Below, piece by piece: positions 19,277-49,213 of a stretch of DNA of 49,213 bases (position 1 is the first letter of the stretch; each line of letters begins with the position of its first letter). This DNA is from Bacillota bacterium (lineage in GTDB: Bacteria; Bacillota; Clostridia; Lachnospirales; Bianqueaceae). The stretch is taken from contig JAGBND010000149.1 in the NCBI GenBank assembly GCA_017634575.1, positions 1 through 49,213 of the forward strand, read 5' to 3'. Position numbers and translations under genes: made by a program. The notes beneath the pieces were generated by a model. It ran no database searches and was not told the DNA's origin. It was given only the letters and a program-made list of their open reading frames with translations.

Positions 19277-21469
19277 ATGCCTGAGAAAAAGTTAGAAGTC
19301 AAAGACTTAAAGATATCCTTCCGTACAACCAACGGCAAGGTTCAGGCTGTCCGCGATATCAGCTTTGATCTGTACAAGGGTGAAACCCTTGCCATCGTTG
19401 GTGAGTCCGGTTCCGGAAAGTCTGTAACCTCCCGCGCCATCATGGGTATTCTTGCCGGCAACGCCATTAAAGACGGCGGCAAAATCCTCTATGACGGTAA
19501 GGATCTGATGAAAATATCCGAAGAAGAGTTCCAGCAGGTCCGCGGCGACAAGATCGCCATGATCTTCCAGGATCCTCTTTCTTCACTGAACCCCATTATG
19601 AGAATCGGTCAGCAGCTTACGGAAGCCATGCTGCTGAAGAATAAGGCCCAGCGCAAAGAGAGCAAAGCCAACATGAAAGCCATGTTCGCTGCACTGGATG
19701 CCCGCATGAAAGAAGTCGGCATTACCGATGCACAGCATGATCTGGCCAAGTTCAAGGATTTTGGCCTTGAGCATTCCAAGCTGCAGACTGAATATACCGA
19801 AGCCTTCGACAATGCTTCCGAGGCTTTGGCGCTGGCTGAAAACTCCGTGCTTCGTATTGACTCGAAGGCGCTGGACGCCACGCTTCATACCGACGTGACC
19901 CAGTTTGTACATGCCGCGAGCCGGGCCAAGAACTACTTTGTTGTAAGAGACAGAGCATCTGAGCTGGATGAAGCAGTAGCTGCCGTCAAGGCGGCTGGAA
20001 CGCCGAAGGACGAAGCCGGTTACGCGCCGGTAAAGGCTGCACTTGAAAAAGCGATCGATGTGCTGAAAGAAGCGGTTGCTTTTGAAAAGCCCAATACCTT
20101 TACCCTGGCCTACTATCTGAAGAATGTCAAACATGAGATTCCCAAGATGCCGGTAGCTGAGATGAACGCCATGACCCACAAGGAGACCGAGCAGGGCTTC
20201 ATGGACGCATTCCAGGCGAAAGCCGAAAAAGCTGTCCGCTATTCTTCGGAAGAGACGGACAAGGCAAGACGCGCAGCCATTGAGCTTCTGACCTCCAAGC
20301 TGCCGATTCTTGAAAAAGAGCAGCCCGACAAGACGGAAGTGGATGCGGCCGTTAAAGAAATGAAGGCTGCAGTCATTAAATGCCTGGATCCTCTGGAAGT
20401 TACCAAGGACTCTCTGACCCATACCTTCGATACGTCCATCGATTACGCCGTGGATCTGTACTTCGGCGGTTTCAAGCGCAACGAAAAGGAAGAGAAGCGG
20501 TTTGCCCGTTCCACTGCCAAGCATGACAAGATTATCGCCAGAGGCAAGACGCCGGATTGGGAAGTCATTCCCATGAGCCTTGTCAACCTGGAAGCTGCCC
20601 GCGTGGATATGGCCGATACCGTTAAAGAGCAGATTGCCCATTTCCGGCATCAGCTGGCAGCTAACGAAAAGGCTGATTTTGCAGCCCGTACTCTTGAGAT
20701 CGTGGACTACCTGAAAGAGCAGACCGAAAACTCAGCCTATAAGCTGACATCTCATGTGGCCCGCGAGCGCGCCATCAAGCTGATGGAGGGTGTTGGCATC
20801 GACAATCCCCGCCGCCGTTTCAGACAGTATCCCTTTGAGTTCTCCGGTGGTATGCGTCAGCGAATCGTTATTGCTATCGCCCTTACAGCCGACCCGGATA
20901 TCCTGATCTGCGACGAGCCGACCACCGCTTTGGATGTTACCATTCAGGCCCAGATCCTGGAACTGATCAACAATCTGAAGAAAGAGCGCAATCTGTCAGT
21001 TATCTTCATCACCCATGACCTGGGCGTTGTCGCTAACATGGCAGACCGTATCGCGGTTATGTATGCCGGCAAGATTGTTGAGTATGGCACGGCAACGGAA
21101 GTCTTCTACGAGCCGGCCCATCCCTATACCTGGGCGCTGCTGGCCTCCGTGCCGGATCTGGATACCAAGGAAAAACTGGAATCTATTCCGGGAACGCCGC
21201 CTAACATGATCTACCCGCCCAAGGGCGATGCTTTTGCCGACCGTAATGCGAATGCGCTGGAGATCGATTTTGAAATGCAGCCGCCCATGTTCCAGATTAC
21301 GGATACCCATTATGCAGCCACCTGGCTGCTGCATCCGAATGCGCCGAAGCTTGAAATGCCTAAGGTCATTACCGAACGTCTGGAGCGTATCAAAGCGCGC
21401 AGGGAAAGACAGAAACTGGAAAATGAAGCCCGGAACGATGACACACAGAACGCAGAGAAGGAGGATTAA
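19277..21469 (+). CDS. oppD: Oligopeptide ABC transporter ATPase (OppD-like) with ~350-residue insertion
   Basis: ATP-binding subunit of 730 residues, about twice the usual 330-350. All ABC motifs are intact: Walker A GESGSGKS (42-49), Q-loop Gln98 in MIFQDPLSSLNP, signature FSGGMRQR (522-529), Walker B ILICDEPTT (Asp546, Glu547), His580, and the OppD C-terminal peptide-transporter extension (AHPYTWALLASVPDL). Between the Q-loop and the signature, where about 20-30 residues are normal, lie about 370 residues (about 121-490). This stretch is K/E/A-rich, mostly helical and contains no second nucleotide-binding motif. It falls in the helical subdomain that contacts the permeases. The frame is unbroken and codon use is like its neighbours, so this is not a fusion error. 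Confidence 0.93.
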   Translation: MPEKKLEVKDLKISFRTTNGKVQAVRDISFDLYKGETLAIVGESGSGKSVTSRAIMGILAGNAIKDGGKILYDGKDLMKISEEEFQQVRGDKIAMIFQDPLSSLNPIMRIGQQLTEAMLLKNKAQRKESKANMKAMFAALDARMKEVGITDAQHDLAKFKDFGLEHSKLQTEYTEAFDNASEALALAENSVLRIDSKALDATLHTDVTQFVHAASRAKNYFVVRDRASELDEAVAAVKAAGTPKDEAGYAPVKAALEKAIDVLKEAVAFEKPNTFTLAYYLKNVKHEIPKMPVAEMNAMTHKETEQGFMDAFQAKAEKAVRYSSEETDKARRAAIELLTSKLPILEKEQPDKTEVDAAVKEMKAAVIKCLDPLEVTKDSLTHTFDTSIDYAVDLYFGGFKRNEKEEKRFARSTAKHDKIIARGKTPDWEVIPMSLVNLEAARVDMADTVKEQIAHFRHQLAANEKADFAARTLEIVDYLKEQTENSAYKLTSHVARERAIKLMEGVGIDNPRRRFRQYPFEFSGGMRQRIVIAIALTADPDILICDEPTTALDVTIQAQILELINNLKKERNLSVIFITHDLGVVANMADRIAVMYAGKIVEYGTATEVFYEPAHPYTWALLASVPDLDTKEKLESIPGTPPNMIYPPKGDAFADRNANALEIDFEMQPPMFQITDTHYAATWLLHPNAPKLEMPKVITERLERIKARRERQKLENEARNDDTQNAEKED

Positions 21470-43367: not shown

Positions 43368-44759
43368 ATGAAAGAAAAGAGCAAAAGCATCGTAAAGTTT
43401 TCCGAGAAGCTTGGCTTTTTAAGCTTCTCCACTTCTACAAACATTGTTTTCAACTTCAAGAGCACGTATTACAAATTCTTTTTGACGTCCATTCTCATGA
43501 TCAATCCGGTGGCGGCTTCGAATATCGCGCTGATCGGCGCGATCTGGGATATTATCAACGACCCGTTCATCGGGGTGTGGGCGAACAACGTCAAATTCAA
43601 ATCCCGTGAGAAGGTGCGGCCCTGGCTGCTCTGGATCGCGGTTCCCTATGGACTTGGCATGGTGCTGCTCTTTACGGATTTCCATGTATCGGAGCGGTGG
43701 GATATTATCCTGGCGCTGATCGTTTTCTTTTTCTATGAGATCGCCAACACACTCCGCGGCATTCCGTACAACGGCATGGGCGCCCTTGTCTCCCGGGATG
43801 ACTCGGACCGAAAATCCATCAATGCCTATCGGTCGCTGGGCGCCTGTCTGGGCTCCGGCATTGGCGCAGTGGCCGTCCCGATGATCGTGAAAGCCTTCGG
43901 CGGTCTGAAGGGGCACAGCGTCATCAACTCCAGTGATTCGCCTGCCATCTTTAGATCGGCCATCTTCATGGGCGTGCTCATCGTCCTGGGCTGCCTGTGG
44001 CACTACTTTACGGTGCATGAGCGGGTCAAACAGGTCTCCGACGACGAGGAGAAGATCGGCATTGTGGAAACCTATAAGATGCTGTTCAAGTGCAAATCCT
44101 GGGTGCGGAACATGCTTTATATCATGAGCTATGGTGTTTCCACCTGCCTGCTGACTTCCTCCATTACCTATTACTGCGCCTACGTGCTGAATAATTCTTC
44201 TCTGGCCACGCCCATCATGGCGGTCTATCTGGTCTTTTCGATCATCTTTTCGGTGCTGACACCCAAAATCGACACGAAGCTGGGACGGAAGAAGACCATG
44301 ATCCTTGGCGCGCTGGTGATGATCGTCGGCAAAATTCCCTTCATTGTGGCGCCGGCGAGCGTGGTCATGGCCATTATCAATGCGGCTACCGCTGGCATCG
44401 GTCTGACGATGACCTTCATTATGTTCAATACCAACCGGAATGCGATTTCCGATATCGTGGAGGTGGAGAATGGACGGAGACTGGATACAATGGTCTCCAC
44501 CGCCGATAACCTGGTGTCCAAGATCGCGGAGGCCATTGTAGACAAGATGTTCCTGGTGGCGCTGGCGGCGGTAGGTTTCTCCGCGCAGCTGGCGGATCAG
44601 GGTCTGATGCAGAATGCCGCTACGCAGAATATGATTAATGCTCTGCTGGGATGGATTCCCGGCCTGGTAGCGGTGGTGATGCTGCTTTTTGCAGCGGGCA
44701 TCGATACCCAGAAGGAATACAACGAAGCAATGGCTGCTAAAGGTAAGGAGAACAGATGA
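43368..44759 (+). CDS. GPH-family (glycoside-pentoside-hexuronide) cation symporter
   Basis: Membrane protein of 463 residues with about twelve helices. EKLGFLSFSTSTNIVFNF at the N-terminus, then IGAIWDIINDPFIGVWANN and SREKVRPWLLWIAVPYG are hallmark sequences of the GPH (MelB-like) family, including the R-x-R-P-W loop. GPH proteins import sugars, glycosides or conjugated small molecules with sodium or protons. ATG 43368 has CAGGAGG 6 bases upstream; the frame is open to 43293 without a site. Its stop overlaps the start of the amide hydrolase gene (ATGA). This pairing suggests import of an amide-bearing or conjugated compound. Confidence 0.9.
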   Translation: MKEKSKSIVKFSEKLGFLSFSTSTNIVFNFKSTYYKFFLTSILMINPVAASNIALIGAIWDIINDPFIGVWANNVKFKSREKVRPWLLWIAVPYGLGMVLLFTDFHVSERWDIILALIVFFFYEIANTLRGIPYNGMGALVSRDDSDRKSINAYRSLGACLGSGIGAVAVPMIVKAFGGLKGHSVINSSDSPAIFRSAIFMGVLIVLGCLWHYFTVHERVKQVSDDEEKIGIVETYKMLFKCKSWVRNMLYIMSYGVSTCLLTSSITYYCAYVLNNSSLATPIMAVYLVFSIIFSVLTPKIDTKLGRKKTMILGALVMIVGKIPFIVAPASVVMAIINAATAGIGLTMTFIMFNTNRNAISDIVEVENGRRLDTMVSTADNLVSKIAEAIVDKMFLVALAAVGFSAQLADQGLMQNAATQNMINALLGWIPGLVAVVMLLFAAGIDTQKEYNEAMAAKGKENR

Positions 44760-45919
44760 TGAAAAATCCACATCAGTTTTTGACGGATCCGGCTCAGATC
44801 AGAACCGTGGAATCGATCCGCCGGGTGGACGAAAACGGATATTTGTACCATATGGTCTGTGATTACGACTATTATGACATTCCGGAAACCTTTCGGGCGA
44901 TGATCGATGCCGGCTGCTCCACCTTTGTGACGAAAAACCTGGAGGGGGAAGTCCTGTTCTGCCGCAACTACGATTACTCCCACTATAAAAACAATGACAA
45001 GATCAACAATCCCCGCACCGGTCTGAACATGATCGTGGAAGGGAACAATCCGAAAGCCAGATTCCGTTCCATCGGCTGCGGCGATGCCTACTGGCTGGAC
45101 TTCAAGAACGGCTCTTATACGAATGGCATGGCGGACGATGGCGTGACGGATCTGAGCAGCTTTATTATGTGTCCTTATCTTTGCATGGACGGCATGAACG
45201 AAGCAGGACTTGCGATCTCCATTCTGGCCCTGGGCGTGAGGGCGGATTGGGAAGAGATTCCGTTCGAGACCTATCAGGAAAGGCTGAATGAAAACCGCAT
45301 GAATCTCTTCCTGGAAAATCCGGGACAAACGCCGGATCCCTACTGGTTCAGAGCCCAGATCGGTTCGGTAGCGGTGAACAAGGCGGATCAGAAGGCCTGG
45401 GTCGCCAACATGGAATGGATCCGGACAAAGACGCCCGGAAAACCCACCTATCTGCATCCCATCGTGATGCGGATGGCGCTGGATCGCTGTGCGAATGTTG
45501 AAGAGGCCGTAGCCCTTCTTGGCAGTGTGAATGTCAGCGGCGCGATGCCGGGCGCGGATTACCACATTATGGTGGCGGACGTTACCGGAAAATCGAAGCT
45601 CGTGGAGTGGATCGGCGATGAGATGGCCGTGACGGATATCGATCACGCCACGAACCATTATGTCGCCAAGGAAGATCTGTTCTACCGGGACGGGCCCTGT
45701 GCGCGGGACGAGCTTCTGAAGGCCGGTCTGTACCGCATCAGAAAGGCCGGCATGCGGGAGGACTTTGCAGAGAACCTGTTAAAGCTGGTCATCCAGGATC
45801 CGACGAATGGCATCGACAATGCAAAAACACAGTATACCTGTATTTACAACCTGACCCGGAAGACCATGAAGGTCTTCTCCTGGGGAGACATGACAAAATC
45901 CTGGGAGTATACACTGTAA
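44756..45919 (+). CDS. Linear amide C-N hydrolase (choloylglycine-hydrolase / acylase-like Ntn enzyme)
   Basis: Protein of 387 residues. AGCSTFVTKNLEGEVLFCRNYDY contains the probable N-terminal nucleophile Cys54 and the following R-N-x-D motif of the Ntn CBAH/penicillin V acylase group. GMNEAGLAISILAL is a second family landmark. Cys54 is not at the start, so about 53 residues would have to be removed for activity, as in acid-ceramidase-like members. Otherwise the protein may be a related peptidase-C45-type enzyme. It would cleave an amide bond such as in N-acyl amino acids or bile-acid conjugates; the substrate is unknown. No signal peptide. Start 44756 (ATGATG) overlaps the GPH stop; AAGGAG is upstream. 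The SD of the next gene overlaps its stop. Confidence 0.83.
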   Translation: MMKNPHQFLTDPAQIRTVESIRRVDENGYLYHMVCDYDYYDIPETFRAMIDAGCSTFVTKNLEGEVLFCRNYDYSHYKNNDKINNPRTGLNMIVEGNNPKARFRSIGCGDAYWLDFKNGSYTNGMADDGVTDLSSFIMCPYLCMDGMNEAGLAISILALGVRADWEEIPFETYQERLNENRMNLFLENPGQTPDPYWFRAQIGSVAVNKADQKAWVANMEWIRTKTPGKPTYLHPIVMRMALDRCANVEEAVALLGSVNVSGAMPGADYHIMVADVTGKSKLVEWIGDEMAVTDIDHATNHYVAKEDLFYRDGPCARDELLKAGLYRIRKAGMREDFAENLLKLVIQDPTNGIDNAKTQYTCIYNLTRKTMKVFSWGDMTKSWEYTL

Positions 45920-45929
45920 GGAGTTCTTT

Positions 45930-48900
45930 ATGCCTCACGATATTACCGCGATCCGTGCGCATCTGAAACGCTTCATGACTAATATCCGTGATGTTTTGAC
46001 CACGGAAGAAGATTTTATCCGTTACGAAACACTATGCGCCAGGCTGCAGAACCTCGACAATCTGACCAAGATGCACTATACGGCGCATCCCGTGCTGACA
46101 AGGGAATATCTGCATACCCTGATTCAGGCCTATGAGGAGGCAGCCCTGGCTGCCGATGAAGTCCTCTCGGAAGAGGAGACCGGCCCCGTAGGTCTGCAGC
46201 TGAAGACCGTGGTCAGAGAACTGATGCCCTATCTGATGAGTGACCTGAACGGACTCAACCTCCTGAATCAGAACCCCACGCTGCCCGAAAAGCCCCTGTC
46301 GGAGCTTATTTCCCAGGTGCGCACCCAGACCGCCGATATGGAAGATGCCTACGCAGTGTCCATCAACCGGCCGGTTCTGATCCGACTAAACAGTCCAACC
46401 ACCAACGAGATCGGTCTGTTTACCCCTTCCCGTCCCGGTGATGCAAACGAACATAAGACAGCTTTTTCCCGGATGGCTGCAGTCCTCGGCGGGCCGGATC
46501 TGGTGGTGAAGACCAGGCCTTTGATGCTCACTCACGGCGGCGCCAGCACTGCCGGCGTCTTTGTTTCCCAGACGGAAGGCCTGGATCCCCTTAAGGTGCG
46601 TCCCGGTGATCCGCTGCTCGCCTTTAAGAAAAAGAATCTCGATACCGGCGCTGCCATATCCGATCTGGCGGGCATGCAGCTCATGGATTTTCTTGCCTCC
46701 GGCAAGACCCTGTCCAGAGGCCCCGAGGACTGTTATCTGCGGTTTAATCCGGACAGCGGAGCAGGCGCCCGGCTGATCGGTCTTTCCATCAAGCCGGACA
46801 CCATTCGCTTCAGCGCCGAGCCCTTTGATCCCGCTGCGCTGTCCGGGCTGAGCGTTATCCCGGCCGGTCTTTATGAACAGCTTCAGGATCCCACTTTCGA
46901 AACCCAGCTGCGCCTCAGCCTGCAGGATGTCCCCCTGCCTGAGGGAACCATTGAGCAGATTCTGGCACGCCGCAGCGCCCTGGTGGAGAAGGTGGAGCGG
47001 GACCGCGCTGTCTATCAGGATGCCGCTCCCGGTTTTGTTCAGCCCGGCAAGCTGCGCGTCGTGCCGGATGACGAATGGGATGCCTATCATCTTGGCGAGC
47101 TTGCCGCGGTAACGCCTGGCAGTCCCTTTGATAAACTGCTGCAGTTGCCGGCGGCATCCATAGACCGGGCGATAGCCTCCGAAGAAAGCTTCCCTCTAAG
47201 AGCCTATCCGGCCATCATCACCGGCAACGGTCTTTATCAGGAGAAGGATCCGCTGAATACGCAGCGGGAAGGAACCCTCAAACTGCAGATTCCCGTGCTG
47301 AACGGTCAGACGGCCCTGAAGGGCGCCGTGAGCAGCCGTTATCCCATCCAGTTCCGTCAAAATGATCAGCTCGTGCGGGGCATGTTCACCCTGCAGAGCG
47401 TCGTTGACATGAAGGCGGAGCTGAAAGCGGAAATCCAGAACTTTATTGATGACCCGGCGCTGGAGAAATACAAAGATGTTTTTCAGGCTATCCAGACCTA
47501 TTATACCGCCTCCACCATTCCCGGTCCGCTCCTGAAGCTGCCCTCTACCGCTGCAGATATCAAATATGGGGAAATGGGGCTTTCCAGGGAACGCGTGGAA
47601 GCGCTGGTGGCAGATCGGGAATTCGCCAAGGCGCTTAAGCTTCTTCAAAGCCGGGATACGCTTATCAGGAGAAAGGCCGAGATGGAGGAACGGCTTGGTT
47701 CTGCCCGCGGACAGCGTGCGGATCTTCGCAATGCAGCCATGAGCGATATCGCTGACGAGCTGGGCGTGCCGGCGCTGCTGGCCCGCTCCGTTCCTGCGCA
47801 GGCCGAGCTGGACGGCAAGGTGGTGGATGGTATTTTCATGGAGGAAGCCAAGGGACAGGATCTGAGAAAGGCTGTGCCCGGCTCTCCCATGGCTATGATT
47901 TCTGCCGATCAGTCGGACGAGGTTTTCAACACCAAAGGCCTGAAGTCCCTGGCGGACATGCAGATCCTGGACTATATCTGCCTGAATCAGGACCGCCATC
48001 AGTATAATATGTTTTATCAGTTTGAAGGGCTGGAAACCGGTCATCCGAAGTTTATCGGCGTGCAGGGGATCGACAATGACTATTCCTTCGGAACCCGCGT
48101 TCCCAAGGAAAAGGAATATATCGGCCATCTGCCTGCTCTTTCCGATATCCGGGTGATCAGCGAAAGCATGGCCAGATCGCTTTCTCAGCCCGGCCTGTTC
48201 GAGAAAATTGCCGCGAAAATGAAGGCTAACGGACTGAGGGAGGCGGAAGTCGACGCAGCCCGCCAGCGGCTTTTGGCTATCAAACGGCGTCTCGAAAAGG
48301 GCAAAATGACGGTGGTTCGTGATGAGGAGTGGGGCAAAGGACGCTTCACCTGGAAAGAGCTGGGAAAAGGTTCGGAGGACTCCTCGATTTTCCAGATTTT
48401 TAAACATTCCGTCGTGGAAACTCTGGCGTCCAAAGCCCAGAAGTATAAGGAAAATCCACAGCCGGTACCGAAGGATGAAACGATCGAATTTCAGGACGTC
48501 CTTAAGGTTGAGTCCTTAGGCGGGGAGGCCATGGACAGCTCCGAAGCGGAAAAGCGCGAGCATGCCGCTTCAGAGGAATTTATCAGAAAAGCGGAAGAAA
48601 ATCTCAGCGCCAACATAACCGTTCTCAACCCGGAGCATGCAGCTCTTTTCCGGATTCATGAGGATGCAGCCCAGATGCTGCAGTATGTGAAAGAGAATGC
48701 GCTTCCCTGGCCCTGGGGATCCAAACAGTACCGCGATATGCAAAGCGCATGCGAGAATCTGCTGCGCTATACCGGCAAGGTCCGGGAGAGGCTTTTGAAG
48801 GATCCTGCTGCGGATATTACATATCCGGAGAGTAAGGAATTGAAAAAGCTTCTGAAGGATGTAGCTGACAAAAGCACATTGTACACCGCTTACAAAAAAG

Positions 48901-49213
48901 AGGACCTGAAGCACCACGATCCGGGTTCTTCTACGGTGCAGCGTCAGAAGAATGCGGTTTACTGCGCAGAAAAGACGGCTGCTTTGCTGGAAGACTATGC
49001 TAAAGAGCGCCGCGCCCGTCTGGAGCCCATGCATCTGGTGTATGAGAAGCTGGAATACGAGCAGGCCAAGCTGAGCGGCAAAACAGGGAAGAGGCTTCGG
49101 GAACAAACAGCCAGAGTGCTCTATCTGGCAGGGCTCACCCGGATGGATTTCGCCAGGAAAACCGGCGTCGGCGTACTGAAAGCCCTGCACGCTGCCACCA
49201 TTTACGAACAGAC
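45930..49213 (+). CDS. Very large protein with two kinase-like modules (pseudokinase then kinase), 3' end outside window
   Basis: The frame is open for 1094 codons to the window edge, from ATG 45930 with AAGGAG (overlapping the previous stop) 6 bases upstream. No signal peptide or membrane helix is seen. Two segments resemble each other. Copy 1 (about 155-300): LGGPDLVVK, GVFVSQTEGLDP, LAGMQLMDFLASGKT, LIGLSIKPD. Copy 2 (about 590-725): LGVPALLAR, GIFMEEAKGQDL, LADMQILDYICLNQDRHQYN, FIGVQGIDNDYSFG. Copy 2 keeps D-R-H-x-x-N (Asp688, His690, Asn693) and I-D-N-D (Asp715, Asp717), as in PI3/4-kinase-like, HipA-like and related atypical kinases. Copy 1 has lost D, H and N. I infer pseudokinase plus kinase. 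The rest is helical and charged; substrate unknown. Confidence 0.75.
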   Translation, partial: MPHDITAIRAHLKRFMTNIRDVLTTEEDFIRYETLCARLQNLDNLTKMHYTAHPVLTREYLHTLIQAYEEAALAADEVLSEEETGPVGLQLKTVVRELMPYLMSDLNGLNLLNQNPTLPEKPLSELISQVRTQTADMEDAYAVSINRPVLIRLNSPTTNEIGLFTPSRPGDANEHKTAFSRMAAVLGGPDLVVKTRPLMLTHGGASTAGVFVSQTEGLDPLKVRPGDPLLAFKKKNLDTGAAISDLAGMQLMDFLASGKTLSRGPEDCYLRFNPDSGAGARLIGLSIKPDTIRFSAEPFDPAALSGLSVIPAGLYEQLQDPTFETQLRLSLQDVPLPEGTIEQILARRSALVEKVERDRAVYQDAAPGFVQPGKLRVVPDDEWDAYHLGELAAVTPGSPFDKLLQLPAASIDRAIASEESFPLRAYPAIITGNGLYQEKDPLNTQREGTLKLQIPVLNGQTALKGAVSSRYPIQFRQNDQLVRGMFTLQSVVDMKAELKAEIQNFIDDPALEKYKDVFQAIQTYYTASTIPGPLLKLPSTAADIKYGEMGLSRERVEALVADREFAKALKLLQSRDTLIRRKAEMEERLGSARGQRADLRNAAMSDIADELGVPALLARSVPAQAELDGKVVDGIFMEEAKGQDLRKAVPGSPMAMISADQSDEVFNTKGLKSLADMQILDYICLNQDRHQYNMFYQFEGLETGHPKFIGVQGIDNDYSFGTRVPKEKEYIGHLPALSDIRVISESMARSLSQPGLFEKIAAKMKANGLREAEVDAARQRLLAIKRRLEKGKMTVVRDEEWGKGRFTWKELGKGSEDSSIFQIFKHSVVETLASKAQKYKENPQPVPKDETIEFQDVLKVESLGGEAMDSSEAEKREHAASEEFIRKAEENLSANITVLNPEHAALFRIHEDAAQMLQYVKENALPWPWGSKQYRDMQSACENLLRYTGKVRERLLKDPAADITYPESKELKKLLKDVADKSTLYTAYKKEDLKHHDPGSSTVQRQKNAVYCAEKTAALLEDYAKERRARLEPMHLVYEKLEYEQAKLSGKTGKRLREQTARVLYLAGLTRMDFARKTGVGVLKALHAATIYEQ

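Follow-up and report, generated by a model that had tools for sequence, protein, structure and literature searches.

A predicted pseudokinase-controlled kinase of rumen Clostridia as a candidate effector of a Gram-positive type IV secretion system

What could be the role of a bacterial protein in which two kinase-like stretches, only one of them with recognizable catalytic residues, follow each other in a single chain? The question is raised by P0001, a gene that runs into the end of contig JAGBND010000149.1 (assembly GCA_017634575.1) of a Bacillota bacterium of the family Bianqueaceae (Clostridia; Lachnospirales). The window, i.e. the whole stretch of DNA that was analyzed, comprises 49,213 nucleotides. 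An earlier note on this DNA had described the gene product as a tandem pseudokinase-kinase, either a regulatory or modifying kinase or a toxin-like effector. The reading that we favor, with modest confidence, is that of an atypical kinase controlled by its pseudokinase half and acting as an effector of a Gram-positive type IV secretion system (T4SS). The open frame (45930..49211) specifies 1094 amino acids (aa), in line with the more than 1090 residues given before, and contains no stop before the contig end at 49213. Since full-length orthologues comprise 1144-1173 aa, roughly 50-80 C-terminal residues are missing.

Comparison of the two halves of P0001 revealed that residues 129-383 align with residues 555-801 in one 255-residue alignment (56 bits, E 1e-12). 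The local score of this repeat was 141, compared with a mean of 36 (standard deviation 5.6, maximum 72) for 1000 shuffles. The repeat is therefore real, and longer than the approximately 130 residues first noticed. It includes a tail motif (RVVPDDEW / TVVRDEEW), so a whole domain was duplicated. A hidden Markov model (HMM) built from the kinase cores of other proteins, and untrained on the N-terminal unit (copy 1), matched copy 1 with 30 bits (E 5e-8) and the C-terminal unit (copy 2) with 222 bits.

AlphaFold2 models computed from alignments of relatives were confident for both copies, with pLDDT 87.4 and pTM 0.85 for copy 1, and pLDDT 90.5 and pTM 0.90 for copy 2. The best structural match of copy 2, in which a helical insert separates the N-lobe hairpin from helix C, was PI4KII-beta (8a5x; Foldseek E 1.1e-6; VIA Z 17.0, rmsd 4.0, 234 aligned), with further matches to CtkA (Z 14.5), Fam20 (14.2), CotH (11.5), HipT (11.3) and MavQ (10.9). 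The kinase fold on which the original proposal depended is thus predicted for this copy. Copy 1 matched the same group (CtkA, Fam20, PI4KII; VIA Z about 12-12.5), so both halves of P0001 are taken to be atypical-kinase folds.

Only copy 2 combines a PF00454-type kinase fold with a DRHxxN loop and a metal-binding Asp. The survey of homologues proposed in the earlier note showed that D688, N693 and D715, together with R470, D681, N686, R689 and R780, are invariant in 79/79 aligned relatives, and that H690 (76/79), N716 and D717 (78/79 each) are nearly so. Copy 1 reads SRGPED and IKPD at the corresponding places, which bears out the observation that only the second stretch keeps these residues. 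In the copy 1 domains of orthologues L105, L106 and L101 the loop reads GRGPE and the metal Asp is likewise lost, the motif [SG]RGPE being kept. In the orthologue from the cultured isolate YSB2008 (L142), copy 1 reads KRRDPNK and VEND, and copy 2 reads DRNYGN and IDNE. Catalytic residues are thus missing from copy 1 in P0001, L105, L106, L101 and L142. A single chain with two kinase-fold domains, of which one is devoid of catalytic residues, constitutes a tandem pseudokinase-kinase architecture; this dead/live split and the fold of both domains are well supported by sequence comparison and modeling. Copy 2 is probably the catalytic domain, in which D688 would serve as the base for phosphotransfer, and N693 and D715 would bind Mg-ATP. 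The predicted fold persists in copy 1, but the catalytic Asp, the metal Asn and the metal Asp have been lost.

Searching genome contigs with the whole 1094-aa protein as a single query gave no match. A scan of species-representative genomes with the family alignment identified 108 relatives, and 76 loci were retained. Almost all come from rumen or gut metagenome-assembled genomes (MAGs) and isolates that belong to Lachnospiraceae, Oscillospiraceae and Eubacterium; a few are from Erysipelotrichaceae, Bacilli and Acholeplasmatales. Most of the genomes are incomplete MAGs, and each carries about 1-11 kinase-domain matches (a tandem counts twice). The family, which the earlier note could not recognize, has no matching NCBIfam model. 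The Pfam matches of P0001, located at the copy 2 catalytic loop, remained below threshold: 24.4 bits for PI3_PI4_kinase (PF00454; cut-off 27.1) and 23.6 bits for Fam20C (PF06702; cut-off 26.8), the signal sequence expected of the Fam20C family not being present. Both weak matches recur in independent relatives, PF00454 staying under its cut-off in the relatives scanned. No description of this kinase family, or of an effector T4SS of rumen Clostridia, was found in open-access papers (subscription papers and preprints were not covered). Giant relatives with a single kinase domain were also observed – L066:7070-11854 (1594 aa), L098:6479-12016 (1845 aa) and G396:C22 (approximately 2500 aa) – as was a kinase gene split into two open reading frames (ORFs) by a frameshift or an assembly error (L021:6897-9172, the same gene as L033).

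The history of the tandem was reconstructed from two trees, one with 45 rows and one with 34 rows from which the longest branch was left out. In the latter, the copy-1 domains of all tandems form one clade (99/95) and the copy-2 domains another (100/99); the 45-row tree splits them likewise. A recent self-duplication in the P0001 lineage was rejected when the copies of P0001, L105 and L101 were forced together (approximately unbiased (AU) test, p 0.0002). The separation of the clades and this rejection point to one old duplication that preceded the catalytic losses. It would have occurred within rumen Clostridia, giving rise to a tandem of kinase domains of the PI4KII/CtkA/Fam20/HipA superfamily. 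Either half has been affected: copy 1 is dead in the P0001 group and in the YSB2008 protein, and copy 2 is dead in the sister lineage L097:196-4194, whose layout is reversed, with DRH/IDND retained in copy 1 and CLKT-RSAGEMA and GTENE in copy 2. Tandems L073, L080 and L102 visibly retain both catalytic sets, and L143 scores alike (its residues were not listed singly); all four group with the other tandems in the tree. A more distant pseudokinase-kinase of genome G045 (L025:5605-9429, 1274 aa) lies on a long branch and may have a separate, independent origin. Dead and live halves swapped between lineages after a single duplication amount to a natural experiment on the origin of pseudokinases. 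Stand-alone pseudokinases of 446 aa exist as well (L029:4681-6021 and L030:8405-9745), with ERSSSD in place of DRHxxN and KTGE in place of IDND, in genomes that carry active family members too.

Several kinase genes of this family are located close to secretion genes. Loci L043, L048, L055 and L071 contain, beside the kinases, a module encoding a VirD4/TraG-type coupling protein (T4CP; Pfam PF02534, E 8e-48), a protein of approximately 230 aa, a STAS protein, an anti-sigma HATPase and a SpoIIE phosphatase. The genome from which the window derives (G000) has its T4SS locus on another contig, C134, with VirB4 (PF19044, 1402 aa), surface proteins and a VirB6-like membrane protein, assigned solely from its size, the order of the genes and its membrane-protein appearance; a pilin (PF18895) was identified in the sister genome G005. 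No PF03432 relaxase is linked to the locus, the sole G000 copy being on a different contig (other relaxase families were not tested). VirB4, VirD4, a VirB6-like protein and a pilin with no linked PF03432 relaxase are the hallmarks of a dedicated, i.e. non-conjugative, T4SS. The T4CP forms a distinct clade, since full-length members score 880-1500 bits and other coupling proteins about 65-105.

Within the genus, this T4CP is present in 4/4 genomes with kinases and in 0/3 without. Among 392 genomes of the order, the kinase is present in 16, the coupling protein in 23, and the two occur together in eight (odds ratio 24, p 4e-7). Further kinase-bearing genomes had the T4CP in 43 of 53 cases (13/15 + 30/38), or in 39/49 when the four genomes in which the module was initially recognized are excluded; the corresponding figure for kinase-free genomes of the order is 15/376. 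A pooled Fisher test of 43/53 against 15/376 gave p 1e-36, for sets that were sampled differently and include related, hence not independent, genomes. T4SS-module genes occur within 10 kb of a kinase at about nine loci. The family thus displays the genetic association with a T4SS that is expected of effectors.

Some further features of these loci were recorded. Large ORFs without a confident Pfam match, regarded as candidate substrates, lie near the T4SS module or kinase genes (L048:4507-6549, L055:6679-9489, L049:4541-8941 and L117:6687-8180). G000:C134 (L116, L117) and the matching loci L118-L122, L144 and L145 combine the STAS/HATPase/SpoIIE module with very large surface proteins bearing a PLAT-like domain; it seems unusual for a secretion system to be controlled by partner switching.

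Copy-number variation, sequence divergence and the T4SS association together favor export of the kinases as effectors. P0001 would most likely be a protein substrate of the T4SS that acts beyond the producing cell by phosphorylating a protein or lipid; its target may belong to rumen protozoa, fungi, host cells or other bacteria. The earlier suggestion of a toxin-like effector gains from the recurrent T4SS locus found elsewhere in the genome. A bolder version, in which a dedicated Gram-positive T4SS of rumen Clostridia delivers a set of PI4KII/Fam20-like kinases, some with fused pseudokinase control, into nearby eukaryotes, e.g. ciliates or fungi, or into other microbes, is speculative and in our view unlikely. 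If true, Legionella-style kinase effectors would have a counterpart in Gram-positive bacteria. According to a 2025 review (PMC12857230), it has long been asked whether the T4SSs of Gram-positive bacteria evolved as translocators dedicated to effectors. Cultured isolates AC2029, YSB2008, LC2019 and C6A11 carry both the kinase family and the relaxase-free T4SS locus, so the effector question is directly testable.

Several observations weigh against this interpretation. The T4CP clade was not found in G045, G077, G095, G204 and G209, whose kinases are more distant members of the family, and P0001 does not lie beside the T4SS locus. Co-occurrence could result in part from common rumen lineages. 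No export signal was identified in the kinases, and no common domain joins them to other large ORFs near the T4SS (weak or kinase-fragment matches only); the terminal helical domains are common to the kinases and not clearly to other T4SS-linked ORFs. The main reservation on the activity of copy 2 is that the usual ATP-anchoring beta3 Lys is not evident, its place being taken by Leu488; another residue, e.g. the invariant R470, may anchor ATP instead.

The kinase might also act inside the producing cell, e.g. on the STAS/anti-sigma/SpoIIE partner-switching of the T4SS locus or on some other housekeeping signal. The lack of a recognizable export signal, the presence of STAS, HATPase and SpoIIE genes within the T4SS locus and the proximity of some kinases to HATPase/SpoIIE genes (in the case of L025, a pseudokinase-kinase, the distance to them is approximately 5-7 kb) are in agreement with this alternative. 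However, about 1-11 kinase-domain matches per genome, set against one T4SS, and their strong divergence look more like a set of substrates than a dedicated regulator, and the T4SS locus is distant from most of the kinase copies. We therefore regard an intracellular role as a serious though less probable explanation.

Within the favored model of an exported kinase, copy 1 would most likely be an intramolecular regulator, a scaffold, or a sensor of substrate or activator for copy 2. This is proposed by analogy with Fam20A-Fam20C (PMC4421793), JAK and plant tandem kinases (PMC6170490). Copy 1 could instead be an evolutionary remnant or a structural spacer that takes no part in regulation. Since both copies look active in some tandems, the tandem architecture does not require a pseudokinase, and copy 1 evolves faster, P0001 and L105 sharing 53% identity in copy 1 and 66% in copy 2. 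The same values indicate that copy 1 is constrained, less tightly than copy 2, and not simply decaying. Its confidently predicted fold, the new [SG]RGPE motif and the substantial identity kept in four genomes, as well as the recurrence of catalytic loss at both tandem positions, make a remnant or spacer unlikely.

Improbable, too, is the possibility that both domains are dead or perform other chemistry, such as AMPylation, glutamylation or metabolite phosphorylation. It draws on the unclear beta3 Lys of copy 2 and on bacterial effectors in which a kinase fold catalyzes other reactions, e.g. SidJ, a polyglutamylase (as cited in PMC9758233). Against it, full conservation of D688, N693 and D715 and near-full conservation of D717 in 79 relatives point to metal-dependent nucleotide chemistry.

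A HipA-like toxin or phage-defence kinase is very improbable: the superfamily is the same, HipT and HipA folds match with Z of approximately 9-11 and HipA_C reached at best 15.4 bits (cut-off 30.5; E 0.015) in a single relative, L022, but P0001 had no match in PADLOC or PHROGs, which disfavors known defence or phage families, no relatives were found in the viral contigs, phages or plasmids searched (a Foldseek viral library yielded distant kinase-like matches only), and no HipB-like partner gene was seen beside the window gene.

Features of P0001 and its surroundings are summarized in Table 1. The kinase pair is flanked by helical domains. Residues 1-127 match an HMM of the first 130 residues of relatives (52 bits, E 4e-15), and a hydropathy scan detected no signal peptide, transmembrane helix or hydrophobic N-terminus (maximum KD19 0.98), so the protein looks soluble. 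In L101:8285-11719, the C-terminal helical part (residues 1036-1090) weakly matches a eukaryotic ATG1-like MIT2 domain (E 7e-4, under cut-off).

Table 1. Location of P0001, its predicted domains and motifs, and the upstream gene within the window
Feature	Position	Strand	Basis or remark
Tandem pseudokinase-kinase gene P0001	45930..49213	+	open frame up to contig end, 3′ end cut off
N-terminal helical domain, residues 1-127	45930..46310	+	common to single-kinase relatives
Copy 1, predicted pseudokinase domain, residues 129-383	46314..47078	+	AlphaFold2 model, VIA, HMM match
Degenerate catalytic loop of copy 1, SRGPED (262-267) for DRHxxN	46713..46730	+	sequence comparison
Degenerate metal site of copy 1, GLSIKPD (IKPD 287-290) for GVQGIDND, D to P289	46779..46799	+	sequence comparison
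Copy 2, predicted kinase domain, residues 463-801	47316..48332	+	AlphaFold2 model, VIA match, HMM 218.7 bits
Beta3-like strand of copy 2, RGMFTL, Leu488	47376..47393	+	Lys in 34/79 relatives at the Leu488 column
Catalytic loop of copy 2, DRHQYN (688-693: D688, R689, H690, N693)	47991..48008	+	conserved in relatives
Metal-binding IDND of copy 2 (714-717: D715, D717)	48069..48080	+	conserved in relatives
C-terminal helical domain, residues 911-1025	48660..49004	+	common to single-kinase relatives (iterated HMM, 55 bits, E 6e-16)
C45/choloylglycine-hydrolase-like amidase, upstream neighbor outside the system	44756..45919	+	Pfam PF03417, PF02275

The gene order at the locus – GPH symporter, C45/Ntn amidase, P0001 – is as described before; the first two genes overlap by 4 bp, and 11 bases separate the amidase stop from the start of P0001. 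The metabolic operon inferred from it has little meaning, as this order was not seen around the first three tandem orthologues examined or around the isolate orthologue, which sit among unrelated genes. It was rejected as a functional context, and the two neighbors are considered incidental. Elsewhere in the window (19277-21469) there is a gene for a 730-aa ABC ATPase of the oligopeptide type, in which a long additional segment separates the Walker A part from the signature part; its relatives are present in 14 of the loci retrieved.

Among known proteins, PI4KII-alpha/beta offer the closest solved fold to copy 2, with a similar metal-site motif containing I-D-N. They differ in sharing only 15% identity with it, in the context of the long helical insert and in the absence of a tandem pseudokinase. 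Fam20C and Fam20A belong to the same superfamily (Z of approximately 14) and exemplify an active kinase activated by a pseudokinase paralogue (PMC4421793, PMC5413348), but they are separate, disulfide-containing secreted animal proteins, whereas P0001 has both units in one bacterial chain. Such a fusion of pseudokinase and kinase is shared with JAK (JH2-JH1) and the plant tandem kinase-pseudokinases (TKPs), the latter a repeated outcome of duplication or fusion (PMC6170490). JAK and TKPs have eukaryotic protein-kinase-like domains, while the family described here has a PI4KII/Fam20-like fold, is found in Clostridia and may have either half dead.

The nearest bacterial parallels are CtkA, MavQ, LepB and OpiA/AnkK of Helicobacter and Legionella, atypical kinases of the same superfamily (as the Z scores of CtkA and MavQ illustrate), several of which are T4SS effectors. 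In contrast to P0001 they have single kinase domains and originate from Gram-negative pathogens; no sequence homology to them was detected in a PDB search. Protein export through a Gram-positive T4SS has been proposed for the 89K system of Streptococcus suis and its secreted SspA-1 (PMC12857230). That locus is different and its substrate is a protease, whereas the clostridial locus has no linked relaxase, includes a STAS/HATPase/SpoIIE module and is accompanied by several candidate substrates.

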